The position numbers were made by a program, and so were the translations under genes. The notes beneath the pieces are model-generated. The model was not told where the DNA came from. It worked only from the letters and a program-made list of their open reading frames with translations, and ran no database searches. DNA of 54,616 nt from Bacteroidota bacterium (GTDB taxonomy: Bacteria; Bacteroidota; Bacteroidia; Bacteroidales; UBA7960), in NCBI GenBank assembly GCA_018335675.1, contig JAGXRQ010000043.1, forward strand, positions 1-54,616, read 5' to 3'. Below are positions 39,074-54,616 of the stretch, piece after piece (position 1 is the first letter of the stretch; each line of letters opens with the position of its first letter).

Positions 39074-39147
39074 TGATTCCGACAGGATTCGAACCTGTGA
39101 CCCACAGCTTAGAAGGCTGTTGCTCTATCCAGCTGAGCTACGGAACC
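39074..39147 (-). tRNA. tRNA-Arg (TCT)
   Basis: 74 bases. Acceptor GGTTCCG/CGGAATC with one G-U pair, A as discriminator. The anticodon loop CTTCTAA gives TCT, reading AGA. It is the last gene of a three-tRNA operon. Confidence 0.95.
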
Positions 39148-39158
39148 CAGTATTATTG

Positions 39159-39232
39159 TCGGGGTGGCAGGATTCGAACCTACGGCCTCCTGCTCCCAAA
39201 GCAGGCGCGATACCGGACTACGCTACACCCCG
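39159..39232 (-). tRNA. tRNA-Pro (TGG)
   Basis: 74 bases. Acceptor CGGGGTG/CACCCCG, A as discriminator. The anticodon loop TTTGGGA gives TGG. It is the middle gene of the operon. Confidence 0.95.
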
Positions 39233-39242
39233 AATTTTTCCT

Positions 39243-39330
<88 letters not shown>

Positions 39331-51728: not shown

Positions 51729-51911
51729 ATGTCAAAAAAAATTCACGAATCAGGACCTTCAGGAGCAGTATATGGATTAGGAATAATCGGTGCTGCAATT
51801 TACTTCATTTCCACAGCAACAGGATTTTGGATGGGCGTATTAGGCTTTTTGAAAGCATTAGTATGGCCTGCATTCCTTGTTTATGAAGCATTAAAAGCAG
51901 TAGGAGCGTAA
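51729..51911 (+). CDS. small two-helix membrane protein, 60 residues
   Basis: Short hydrophilic start (SKKIHESGPSG) and then two hydrophobic helices with a Gly-rich first one (VYGLGIIGAAIYFIST, VLGFLKALVWPAFLVYEAL). The frame begins 35 bases after the TPR kinase stop and ends inside a terminator loop, and its composition is protein-like, so I regard it as real. I recall similar ~60-residue proteins in Bacteroidota, but no function. It may share the kinase transcript. Confidence 0.75.
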   Translation: MSKKIHESGPSGAVYGLGIIGAAIYFISTATGFWMGVLGFLKALVWPAFLVYEALKAVGA

Positions 51912-51930
51912 TTTACTCCTACTGCTTTTT
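51893..51930 (+). terminator. Rho-independent terminator overlapping the small gene stop
   Basis: A 14-bp perfect stem (51893-51906 with 51916-51929) and a 9-base loop containing the TAA of the 60-residue protein. It ends in T and has A/T flanks on both sides, so it could serve the convergent trpB as well. Confidence 0.85.
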
Positions 51931-51944
51931 ATCTAATGTGGAAT

Positions 51945-53147
51945 TTAAAACTCTCTTTCCACATCCTTGTCTCCTCTGCCAGATAGGTTTATTATAGCTA
52001 ATCTGTTTTGGCCTTTTAGGATTTTGTCGGCAAGTGCAACTGCATGGCTTGATTCAATTGCAGGGATAATGCCTTCAAGTTCCGAAATCAACTTATAAGC
52101 TGCAATAGCTTCTTTGTCGGTAACAGCAAAATACTTTGCTCTATTCGACTCTTTTAGAAAAGAATGCTGCGGGCTAATTCCCGGGTAGTCAAGACCGGCA
52201 GCAATTGAGTGTGATTCAACCGGATTCCCTTCTGTGTCAACAAGGCAGTATGAGTATGTGCCTTGAAAAATCGTGGGTTTACCCATTGATAGAGTAGCAG
52301 CTGTGTTGTCTAAAGTTGCGTTCCCACCTCCTTCGGCACCTAAAATCTCCACTTCAACATCATCAAAGAAACCGGAGAACAGGCCTATTGCATTGGAGCC
52401 GCCGCCAACACATGCGAAGATAGAATCAGGCAGTCGGCCCTCAGTATCTAATATTTGGTTTCTTGCTTCTTGCCCTATCACGCTTTGAAAATACCCAACC
52501 ATTTTTGGATAGGGGTGAGGACCTACCTGAGAACCAAGCAAATAATAAGATTCTGGGTTTTCTATATAATAACCAAGTGCTGCATCAACTGCGTCTTTAA
52601 GGGTCTGGGTGCCTAGGTCAGTACTTATTACTTCAGCGCCTAGAAACTTCATTCTTCTTACATTCAATGTCTGACGCTTTACATCTATTGCACCCATAAA
52701 TACTTTGCACGGGATTCCTATCAAAGCAGCAGCAGTTGCTGTGGCAACTCCATGCTGGCCGGCGCCGGTTTCTGCAATTATCTCTTTTGCGCCCATGCTC
52801 TTGGCTATTAGGATTTGCCCGATTGTATTGTTTATTTTATGTGAGCCTGTGTGATTCAGGTCTTCTCTTTTCAGGTAAATTTTAGAACCGATATGCTCAC
52901 TTAGCCTTTTTGCATAATACAATGGTGAAGGCCTCCCCACATAGGTTTTTAGATAATGAATAAACTCTTTTTGAAACGATTCTTTTCGAGCTTCGCTATC
53001 AAAAAAATCAGCTAGTTTTTCTAATGGAGCAGCCAAAACCGGAGGAATATATGCTCCTCCAAATTCTCCATAAAACCCATTATAATTAAGCATTGATGAA
53101 ATTGGCTGTACTTGTGTTTCTTTTGTAATTGTATGTAATTTTTCCAT
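51945..53147 (-). CDS. trpB: tryptophan synthase beta chain
   Basis: 400 residues from the ATG at 53147. An upstream in-frame ATG at 53285 would add 46 residues that read through a GC-rich hairpin and are not family-like. Hallmarks: YNGFYGEFGGAYIPP, LKREDLNHTGSHKINN with the PLP Lys, ETGAGQHGVATATAAAL, LLGSQVGPHPYP, CVGGGSNAIGLF, and AAGLDYPGISPQHSFL. It joins indole and serine to make tryptophan, normally with TrpA. No other trp gene is adjacent: downstream is the convergent small protein gene. Upstream lies a leader peptide with two Trp codons and a terminator, pointing to control by attenuation. Confidence 0.96.
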   Translation of the reverse strand: MEKLHTITKETQVQPISSMLNYNGFYGEFGGAYIPPVLAAPLEKLADFFDSEARKESFQKEFIHYLKTYVGRPSPLYYAKRLSEHIGSKIYLKREDLNHTGSHKINNTIGQILIAKSMGAKEIIAETGAGQHGVATATAAALIGIPCKVFMGAIDVKRQTLNVRRMKFLGAEVISTDLGTQTLKDAVDAALGYYIENPESYYLLGSQVGPHPYPKMVGYFQSVIGQEARNQILDTEGRLPDSIFACVGGGSNAIGLFSGFFDDVEVEILGAEGGGNATLDNTAATLSMGKPTIFQGTYSYCLVDTEGNPVESHSIAAGLDYPGISPQHSFLKESNRAKYFAVTDKEAIAAYKLISELEGIIPAIESSHAVALADKILKGQNRLAIINLSGRGDKDVEREF

Positions 53148-53253
53148 GATTTTTTTATTTGAAAATGATTTATATATGAATTTTTTAAAATAATGAACCG
53201 TGCAAATTTCTAGCATTGCACACTTTACCCACGTAAGGTAAATGCATTTAATG

Positions 53254-53271
53254 GGCGGGGGAGCCCCCGCC
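53254..53271. repeat. GC-rich hairpin between attenuator and trpB
   Basis: GGCGGGG with CCCCGCC around a 4-base loop, unusual in this AT-rich gap. A weaker stem TTTACC/GGTAAA lies at about 53224-53242. It has no T tract, so it is not a terminator. It could shape the trpB leader RNA or be an intergenic repeat. Confidence 0.6.
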
Positions 53272-53320
53272 AACGCCAATTCCATCTTTGTATTAAAATG
53301 TAGTAGTTCATTTTTTTAAA

Positions 53321-53352
53321 TAAAAAAAAGCCGCAAGGGATTTCTTGCGGCT
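53321..53352 (-). terminator. trp attenuator terminator
   Basis: Minus strand stem AGCCGCAAG/CTTGCGGCT (53344-53352 with 53329-53337), loop AAATCC, followed directly by a run of T ending ATTT. It begins 28 bases after the leader-peptide stop and lies about 175 bases before the trpB start. I found no clear antiterminator partner by eye. Confidence 0.85.
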
Positions 53353-53380
53353 CTATATTGTTTACATAGTTATACCTTTA

Positions 53381-53443
53381 TCAATACCCTTTTTTGTGAG
53401 AGATTAATAAGTGCCACCATGTTATATTTAATCCGATTTTCAT
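53381..53443 (-). CDS. trpL: trp leader peptide with tandem Trp codons
   Basis: A 20-residue frame, ATG at 53443 and TGA at 53381-53383, reading MKIGLNITWWHLLISHKKGY. Residues 9 and 10 are consecutive TGG codons, while Trp is otherwise rare. It sits between hisIE and trpB on the trpB strand and is followed after 28 bases by a Rho-independent terminator. This is the arrangement of ribosome-mediated attenuation: stalling at the Trp codons when charged tRNA-Trp is scarce would alter folding downstream and allow read-through into trpB. A possible promoter lies just upstream. The assignment rests on layout; no homology was checked. Confidence 0.82.
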   Translation of the reverse strand: MKIGLNITWWHLLISHKKGY

Positions 53444-53470
53444 ATTGTTGTCTTTTTGACCTTCGACATG

Positions 53471-53501
53471 CAAAGGAAATAATAATTGTTTACAAATACA
53501 A
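53471..53501 (-). promoter_or_regulatory. possible promoter of the trp leader
   Basis: Minus strand TTG (53499-53501), 20-base spacer, TTCCTTTG (53471-53478), which misses TAnnTTTG at one position. It would start the leader RNA about 20 bases before the leader ATG. The -33 element touches the end of hisIE. Confidence 0.4.
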
Positions 53502-53502
53502 C

Positions 53503-54099
53503 TTACGAACGCATTTTTAGTATTCTCTCAATATCTACTAGTTTAATATTTTTCGACTTTAGCAATATTATCAAGTGGTACAAAAGGTCTGCAGCTTCAT
53601 TTTTAAATAGCTTTTTGTTGTTTCTGTTAGCTTCAATTACAAGTTCAACGGCTTCTTCTCCCACTTTTTGTGAGACTTTGTTTATGCCTTTTTTAAAGAG
53701 ATTATTTGTGTACGAGCTTTGTGCATCACATTCTATTCTGTCGGAAATTGTTTTTTCTAATTCGTAAAGAAATCCTTTGTCAGGCATAGCCCCAAAACAA
53801 CTTTCGCGTTTTTTATGACAAGTATTTCCTTCTGGAATTACTTGTATCAAAATTGTGTCATTGTCGCAGTCTGAATAAATCTTTACAACATTAAGAAAAT
53901 TGCCGGAAGTTTCCCCTTTTGTCCACAATCGTTTTTTAGTTCTGCTGTAGAAAGTAACCTTTCCTTCTTTTTGAGTTTTTAATAATGCATCTTCATTCAT
54001 ATAGCCAAGCATCAGCACTTTCATGTTTAGATAATTCTGAATTATTACAGGCACAAGGCCATTATTTTTTTTGAAATTAATCTTAAGTTTTGCTTTCAT
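53503..54099 (-). CDS. hisIE: phosphoribosyl-AMP cyclohydrolase / phosphoribosyl-ATP pyrophosphatase
   Basis: 198 residues, normal for the bifunctional enzyme. The HisI half (1-~105) has MLGYMNEDAL, RLWTKGETSGNFLNV and the metal-binding SDCDNDTILIQV and GNTCHKKRESCF. The HisE half (~112-198) has KVSQKVGEEAVELVIEA and NEAADLLYHLIILLKSK. It performs steps two and three of histidine synthesis. No other his gene is in view; the genes upstream on this strand would lie beyond the IS element. The stop is 59 bases from the trp leader ATG, so read-through from hisIE into the leader is possible. Confidence 0.95.
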   Translation of the reverse strand: MKAKLKINFKKNNGLVPVIIQNYLNMKVLMLGYMNEDALLKTQKEGKVTFYSRTKKRLWTKGETSGNFLNVVKIYSDCDNDTILIQVIPEGNTCHKKRESCFGAMPDKGFLYELEKTISDRIECDAQSSYTNNLFKKGINKVSQKVGEEAVELVIEANRNNKKLFKNEAADLLYHLIILLKSKNIKLVDIERILKMRS

Positions 54100-54412
54100 G
54101 TGTTAATAATTTGTTTTTTAATGGTTCCCGCCCATGCAGCGATTTTTCAAAAGGTTTTCATTTTAGTTCATGATGTGTAATTTACATATTTAGAATTAGT
54201 TAGTTGTAATTTTCATGAAATTAAATATGGCGGCATTTTTTCATTTTTAATTAATAAGGTAATAAGGTTGGTTTTCTCCTGTTACCCTTTCTACTAAGGT
54301 TTGATGAAAAAAATAAGGTTTTTTTAAAAGCATAAAAACCTTATTTTCAATATTTTAACCTTAGTAGAAAATTAATGTATATGATTTTTAACCTCTTATA
54401 TAACTTCCTCGT
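54100..54412. other. gap between hisIE and the transposase end
   Basis: About 310 bases with no gene. It contains the upstream region of hisIE (no clear promoter box found) and the nested palindromes at 54288-54370 that probably belong to the mobile element. Confidence 0.6.
54288..54370. repeat. nested palindromes beside the transposase
   Basis: Outer arms TTTCTACTAAGGTT (54288-54301) and their exact reverse complement (54357-54370). Inside is a second perfect 13-bp stem, AAATAAGGTTTTT (54311-54323) with 54334-54346. AAGGTT is shared by both. It could be the element end or a terminator for its transposase. Confidence 0.8.
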
Positions 54413-54616
54413 TCATGCAGCTTCCAGTTTAGCTAATTTCATCCTTAACTGATTGATTTTCTTTTGTTTATATTTTTGTTGAAATTCAAGTAGCGCATTT
54501 GGGTTGAAACTTTGTTGGTTGATTATCATTTTATAATAGATAATGGACAGTTTTCGTGCTGTTGCCACAACTGCTTTCCCTGCGCCGGCTCTTGCCTTTA
54601 ATCTTCTAAAGTGGTC
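54413..54616 (-). CDS. IS110-type transposase, C-terminal fragment (cut by window edge)
   Basis: 67 codons up to the stop at 54413-54415; the rest lies beyond the window. HFRRLKARAGAGKAVVATARKL followed by IIYYKMI is the characteristic end of the Transposase_20 domain of IS110/IS1111 elements, then a Lys/Gln-rich tail. These enzymes are DEDD recombinases that usually do not make target duplications. Whether the full gene is intact cannot be seen. Confidence 0.8.
   Translation of the reverse strand, partial: DHFRRLKARAGAGKAVVATARKLSIIYYKMIINQQSFNPNALLEFQQKYKQKKINQLRMKLAKLEAA

Follow-up and report, generated by a model that had tools for sequence, protein, structure and literature searches.

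A probable ribosome-mediated transcription attenuator in front of a stand-alone trpB gene in Bacteroidota

A Trp-Trp leader frame and a terminator precede trpB

The window analysed here, a stretch of 54,616 nucleotides from a Bacteroidota genome, carries on its minus strand a trpB gene that is preceded by the following features, given in the order in which the minus strand is read.

53503..54099, minus strand: hisIE, the upstream neighbour, included for context only
53471..53501, minus strand: putative promoter of the loose Bacteroidota form, TTG-N20-TTCCTTTG
53381..53443, minus strand: leader frame 1 (uORF1), MKIGLNITWWHLLISHKKGY*, 20 codons, with its ATG at 53443 and its stop ending at 53381
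53364..53422, minus strand: hairpin 1:2, formed by the Trp codons and those after them (53422..53398) with the region of the stop codon (53389..53364)
53383..53391, minus strand: candidate antiterminator segment AAGGGTATT, which runs up to and into the stop codon of uORF1 and overlaps the 3' arm of hairpin 1:2
53318..53353, minus strand: Rho-independent terminator with a T run
53335..53342, minus strand: candidate partner of the antiterminator segment, AATCCCTT, made up of the terminator loop and the first bases of the 3' arm
53225..53311, minus strand: leader frame 2 (uORF2), MNYYILIQRWNWRWRGLPRPLNAFTLRG*, Trp-rich, between the terminator and trpB
53254..53271, minus strand: strong GC hairpin GGCGGGGGCTCCCCCGCC inside uORF2, with no T run after it
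51945..53147, minus strand: trpB, a stand-alone tryptophan synthase beta subunit by profile match, alignment and tree

The trpB product scores 518.9 bits against TIGR00263, which is above the cut-off of 392.45, and 177.8 against TIGR01415, presumably a TrpB-related, TrpB2-like family, which is below that model's cut-off of 518.85. The trpB start at 53147 was chosen by alignment with relatives; a longer mechanical frame, from 53285, extends across the gap between the leader and trpB.

An earlier note on this DNA had described a 20-codon frame with two consecutive Trp codons and a strong terminator in front of trpB, and this layout is confirmed. Specifically, uORF1 contains two adjacent TGG codons at 53419..53414 (minus strand) and starts 59 nt past the end of hisIE. 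The note had counted 28 bases between frame and terminator; the close spacing holds, although the distance from the uORF1 stop to the terminator stem is 26-27 nt by our measurement. Six terminator-like sites occur in 51900..54616, among which the one at 53353..53318 has the most pairs (11), followed by a T run. When the window was scanned with Rfam, five tRNAs were the only matches to reach a gathering score and no family did so in the leader; the T-box riboswitch model was not matched at the leader, and the Trp_leader family was not matched in the window. Three tRNA genes are clustered at 39074-39330 on the minus strand.

The leader is conserved in the lone TrpB lineage

Relatives were taken from named genomes, limited to the best 80, and from a sample of 393 genomes belonging to the same order. 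TrpB proteins of the lone type, with at least 59% identity, occur in 40 of these 393 genomes; those of the canonical type have at most 56% identity. In a tree built without L160 and L172, 50 lone TrpB rows and four from Sphingobacteriaceae form one group (54 rows, support 100/100).

Altogether 57 loci were assembled, 10 of which (L004-L007, L143, L156, L159, L160, L172 and L181) were dropped before the detection script was run on the other 47. All 47 loci given to the script have a leader with a Trp pair and a terminator, with the first Trp codon lying 52-87 nt before the terminator in every case. Counted by clade, a leader frame with WW, WWW or WxW and a terminator are present at 47 of the 53 testable lone-clade TrpB loci in Bacteroidota, where the 53 are non-duplicate lone-clade loci with usable upstream sequence. 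L156 and L181 fall outside this count with only 85 and 12 nt upstream, as does L172, which has the same leader and distances as L016, and L182, which belongs to the canonical clade though it is among the 47 loci run through the script; L182 has a WWWH leader and a terminator too. L160 is counted in the 47/53 from a leader and terminator seen by eye outside the script run, and was put in the lone clade by identity alone (66%). Leader peptides from other loci include NIWWWHKLIRTQGD, NNWWHSKNLKQGDNSLR and RFWWWLSFQFEIGK. The earlier note had called a lone trpB under its own Trp leader unusual; within this lineage it is the rule, and the short Trp-pair frame that it had proposed to look for in relatives is conserved together with the terminator.

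The exceptions are L004-L007 from Sphingobacteriaceae, where the 698-750 nt upstream of trpB hold no Trp-pair frame, and L143 and L159, where no leader was recognised. Since six lone-clade loci have no recognised leader, a lone trpB can do without it. In L143 (1-455), direct repeats resembling CTCGCTGATAACGCTGATTTTCGCAG, observed by eye, largely fill the leader region before trpB.

The Bacteroidota promoter consensus is TTG-N-TAnnTTTG. A strict promoter of this type precedes the leader in 16 of the 47 loci relative to 0.3 expected from mononucleotide shuffles, and a strict or loose one in 28 of 47 relative to 2.4 expected from such shuffles; the window has the loose form only.

No match to TrpE, TrpG, TrpD, TrpC, TrpF or TrpA was found in the available trpB flanks of the 57 loci, several of which are short, with L172-L182 and L154 having nearly no downstream sequence. 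Across the same loci, with their varying flanks, histidine genes lie near trpB in the window, L002, L009 and L015 only, and a HisIE match upstream occurs only in the window (some upstream flanks being short). In L002, L009 and L015 hisG and hisD lie downstream of the lone trpB, with hisC present too in L009 and L015. A link between histidine genes and trpB was considered and judged incidental, as these four loci are the only ones of 57 where it is seen.

The tree groups the window TrpB with another family and with Sphingobacteriaceae (smallest well-supported set 99/99), and no TrpB of more than 54% identity was found in the other 46 searched genomes of the window's family, so that horizontal transfer of trpB into this family is likely. 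The only other searched genome of the window's genus, G028 (88% complete), has no TrpB, TrpA or TrpC match.

Leader RNA pairs with the Trp codons and with the terminator apex

Hairpin 1:2 of the window is stable on folding without a ribosome and recurs among relatives. Relative to dinucleotide-shuffled spacers, its mean z is -2.09 (SE 0.26, n=47), with the window at -4.46, and relative to spacers swapped among loci it is -1.32 (SE 0.18). At least four of the nine Trp-codon bases pair with downstream RNA in 45 of the 47 loci, and the median distance between the start of this partner and the first stop-codon base is 6 nt.

Leaders that precede trpE in the same family offer a comparison. Ten trp operon starts were fetched, two of which (L137 and L141) have their first gene too near the contig end. 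The other eight (L133, L134, L135, L136, L138, L139, L140 and L142) all have a WW or WWW leader and a terminator before the first gene, for which the best NCBIfam match is anthranilate synthase component I, full length and under the cut-off. In all eight the leader pairs with the end of the terminator 5' arm and the loop, with z of -3.3 to -4.3 relative to mononucleotide shuffles, and the antiterminator is often GUGUUGAGC.

For the lone trpB loci, pairing was tested across five terminator regions in the 47 loci, and two of the five regions stood out strongly; the choice of antiterminator region was post hoc, made after the trpE leaders had been inspected, the first tests having been limited to the 5' arm and null. 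An antiterminator directed against the terminator 5' arm was rejected after null results in three designs (shuffle, pairing census and swap). In the test of five regions, the leader spacer against the 5' arm alone gave 0.14 in the 47 loci, which is no signal. Pairing of the leader spacer with the terminator apex, defined as the loop together with the four 5'-arm bases leading into it and the five 3'-arm bases after it, is strong, with a shuffle z of -1.97 (SE 0.20) and a swap z of -1.11 (SE 0.16), and 19 of 47 loci fall within the best tenth of swaps. The loop plus the 3' arm gives a shuffle z of -1.59 and a swap z of -0.75. The leader segments involved mostly lie within about 20 nt of the stop codon, as in the predicted pairings GGGGAACTC:GAGTTCCCC in L009 and AGGGGATT:AATCCCCT in L146. 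In the window, the pairing of 53391..53383 with 53342..53335 contains one bulged base and has a computed energy of -7.3 kcal/mol, which is weak for the window alone. The antiterminator is clearer in the trpE leaders than before the lone trpB.

Equilibrium folding with a ribosome masked at the Trp codons clearly lowered the terminator probability in only 2 of 47 loci (L009 and L148). Any switching would have to be kinetic, since the terminator is the favoured fold at equilibrium. The earlier note had seen no obvious antiterminator, had suggested that the mechanism may differ from the enterobacterial one and had proposed folding the leader for alternative stems. These doubts are not supported. 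Alternative stems emerge from the comparison of loci: across relatives there is an antiterminator, which the stop-codon segment forms with the loop of the terminator and the beginning of its 3' arm and which avoids the 5' arm. A switch at equilibrium is confined to the two loci just named. Given the apex pairing in relatives and the clearer trpE antiterminators, the switch appears to follow the classical logic through a different set of pairings; this follows from the position of the antiterminator segment, which belongs to hairpin 1:2 as part of its 3' arm and would also be covered by a ribosome that has reached the stop codon. The attenuation mechanism is, in our reading, well supported by comparison, short of proof.

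A second Trp-rich frame lies between the terminator and trpB

The leader contains a feature beyond those of the earlier note, namely uORF2. An ATG frame with at least two Trp codons past the terminator occurs in 28 of 40 loci, whereas 200 shuffles gave 0.57 such loci on average and never more than 3; the 40 are those of the 47 loci whose gap measures 95 nt or more, the other 7 gaps being too short. No such frame was found in 12 of the 40 loci, nor was an ATG frame with two Trp codons found after the terminator in the eight trpE loci. In 20 loci the frame has an exact W-x7-W spacing, with two Trp residues eight apart, as in MKKFILIWLNIIENRWHCVL; one of these, L171, is within a longer frame and may not belong. 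The W-x7-W frames have a pS of 0.69 and a pN of 0.30, relative to 0.41 and 0.34 in the out-of-frame control, and pN is below pS in 46 of 48 pairs (at least 55% identical and non-independent), so there are signs of peptide-level selection on this form of uORF2.

A profile trained on six uORF2 sequences gave more than 8 bits in 12 of 29 other loci relative to 1 of 580 shuffles. The window uORF2 (RWNWRWRGLPR) scores 0.1 with this profile and is without the W-x7-W spacing; the window's relatives L003 and L145-L147 have a different form, WWWRG-P. Strong hairpins are found around uORF2 in the window, L002, L003, L144 and L145. A GC-rich hairpin coding for WRG(L/F)P, with no T run, lies within uORF2 in L002, L003 and L144 as well as at 53254-53271 of the window. 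By eye, no common strong structure was noticed among the W-x7-W loci inspected. We consider uORF2 more likely to act as a second gate than as a mere aid to reinitiation.

Gene content points to indole salvage

Searches of the genome that contains the window (98% complete) gave a single TrpB match and none to trpA, trpC, trpD or trpF. The view of the earlier note that a Trp attenuator stands before a trpB without neighbouring trp genes is supported, and the other trp genes that it had proposed to locate are, for these four, unmatched in the genome. A tryptophanase is present, matching NF053783 with 832.6 bits (equivalog cut-off 750). With tryptophanase present and trpA, trpC, trpD and trpF not found, indole should come from tryptophan breakdown. 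The gene content therefore points to a role of the lone TrpB in indole salvage, by which tryptophan would be rebuilt when short. A report on Bifidobacterium describes how external indole is salvaged to tryptophan (PMC11085991).

Among the 40 genomes with a lone-type TrpB, trpA is over its cut-off in 8, trpF in 8 and trpD in 6, with a seventh TrpD in two pieces. In the genome of L003, trpA is seen as two overlapping fragments with an internal TAG (G048:C23:17121-17835), which may be a decaying gene or an assembly error. Many genomes of the order are without trpA as well, TrpA being present in 150 of 393 and absent in 243. A TnaA-family match occurs in 39 of the 40 lone-type genomes, none of them over the TIGR02617 cut-off, and of these proteins that of the window's genome was the one checked beyond TIGR02617. 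In the order sample 284 of 393 genomes have a TnaA-family match (E 1e-80), which gives 39/40 lone-type genomes versus 245/353 others (Fisher p 2.5e-5, kinship ignored). This enrichment is only moderate, and the genomes are non-independent. The tryptophanase gene converges on trpB, 85-191 nt past its end, in 5 of the 45 loci whose downstream sequence extends for 800 nt or more, and these five (L008, L014, L157, L158 and L164) all belong to one tree branch.

Discussion

The reading that we favour, with a probability of roughly 0.87, is that a ribosome-mediated transcription attenuator activates expression of a stand-alone TrpB under a shortage of charged tRNA-Trp. When tryptophan is ample, a ribosome would pass the Trp-Trp codons, reach the leader stop and cover the antiterminator segment, so that the terminator would fold and transcription would stop before trpB. 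When tryptophan is scarce, the ribosome would stall at the Trp codons and open hairpin 1:2; the freed segment could then pair with the loop of the terminator and the beginning of its 3' arm, letting RNA polymerase continue into trpB. TrpB would condense indole and serine to tryptophan, with the indole coming from the breakdown of tryptophan, either the cell's own or its neighbours', rather than from de novo synthesis.

Several other explanations were weighed against this one. Short frames are common and hisIE ends 59 nt from uORF1, so a chance reading frame in front of a terminator that merely closes the hisIE transcript might be imagined; however, a Trp-pair frame and a terminator at a narrow distance recur in 47/53 lone-clade loci, and an upstream HisIE match is seen in the window only, among 57 loci with some short upstream flanks, which leaves this explanation hardly credible. 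We also regard it as highly improbable that the leader senses a signal other than tRNA-Trp, such as a TRAP-like protein, a T-box or a riboswitch, with the Trp codons being incidental. The stability of hairpin 1:2 without a ribosome would fit such a sensor, but no Rfam family reaches its gathering score in the leader, and all 47 leaders were recognised through their Trp codons, which also precede trpE. A characterised stand-alone-active TrpB has a cellular role that is left unresolved in the cited passages (PMC11917138), and by analogy the lone TrpB might serve another reaction (making a tryptophan analogue or secondary metabolite), with the leader only silencing it at high tryptophan. This seems quite unlikely, though less so than the two preceding explanations, as control by Trp codons and the missing rest of the pathway fit salvage directly and TrpB is well above the TIGR00263 cut-off.

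More weight is given to uORF2 being the main control, though this too is unlikely, in which a stall at its Trp codons or a TnaC-like arrest would set Rho access or trpB translation and uORF1 would be only a coarse first gate. The excess of Trp-containing second frames over shuffles (28/40 loci versus 0.57 on average and at most 3 across 200 shuffles) and the 20 W-x7-W loci with their low pN (pS 0.69 versus pN 0.30, out of frame 0.41 versus 0.34) speak for this arrangement. Against it stand the 12 of 40 loci where uORF2 was not found, the 7 of 47 gaps too short for the count, and the window's own uORF2 with its near-zero profile score and without the W-x7-W spacing. An extension of the attenuator reading, which we put forward tentatively and rate somewhat below even, is a two-stage tryptophan sensor in which uORF1 attenuates transcription, uORF2 provides a second step and, with tryptophanase, indole serves as a recoverable reserve of tryptophan. 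In such a sensor uORF2 might gate Rho access or translation by codon stalling or by nascent-chain arrest; in many loci it would encode a conserved peptide some 18 residues long whose Trp residues stand at a constant spacing of 8.

Leader-peptide attenuation is a textbook case in Proteobacteria and Actinobacteria. The enterobacterial trpL leader has tandem Trp codons, a hairpin over them, an antiterminator and an intrinsic terminator about 60 nt past the Trp codons. The window leader resembles it in its short Trp-tandem frame, Trp-codon hairpin, stop codon near the segment to be freed, candidate antiterminator and terminator. Unlike trpL, it controls, by our reading, one stand-alone trpB in another phylum, has no Rfam match, would use an antiterminator that pairs with the terminator loop and 3' arm and not the 5' arm, and is followed past the terminator by a second Trp-rich frame. 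With the trpE leaders of the same family it shares a WWWH-type peptide style, a terminator and an antiterminator segment near the leader stop, whereas the trpE antiterminators pair with the end of the 5' arm and the loop, and more trp genes lie downstream in those operons. In E. coli TnaC and in the two-level control of Bacillus rtpA, a Trp-containing peptide acts after or besides transcription attenuation; uORF2 would resemble these as a Trp-containing peptide beyond transcription attenuation. The trp attenuators of Corynebacterium and Streptomyces, as covered in the cited passages, likewise use leader-peptide attenuation outside Proteobacteria, in another phylum and with other targets (PMC4833913). 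The stand-alone-active plTrpB is also outside a trp operon, and its genome, unlike that of the window, has trpA, according to the cited passages (PMC11917138).

A 2010 survey states, in the cited passages, that no known case had been shown outside Proteobacteria and Actinobacteria before its own Firmicutes case, ermC aside, and the stems Bacteroid-, Cytophaga- and Flavobacter- are absent from its main text (PMC2965389). We found no report of a trp attenuator in Bacteroidota in the open literature, a search that left subscription papers mostly outside. The leader described here is of a known leader-peptide kind, real and widely conserved; it is set apart by its new setting, by its other antiterminator geometry and by the second Trp peptide. 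If this reading is correct, the Trp attenuator would be a common device in Bacteroidota, one that persisted or moved along with a solitary trpB in bacteria without the pathway and that governs indole-to-tryptophan salvage in tryptophanase-bearing bacteria. The conserved uORF2 peptide renders the two-step model directly testable.
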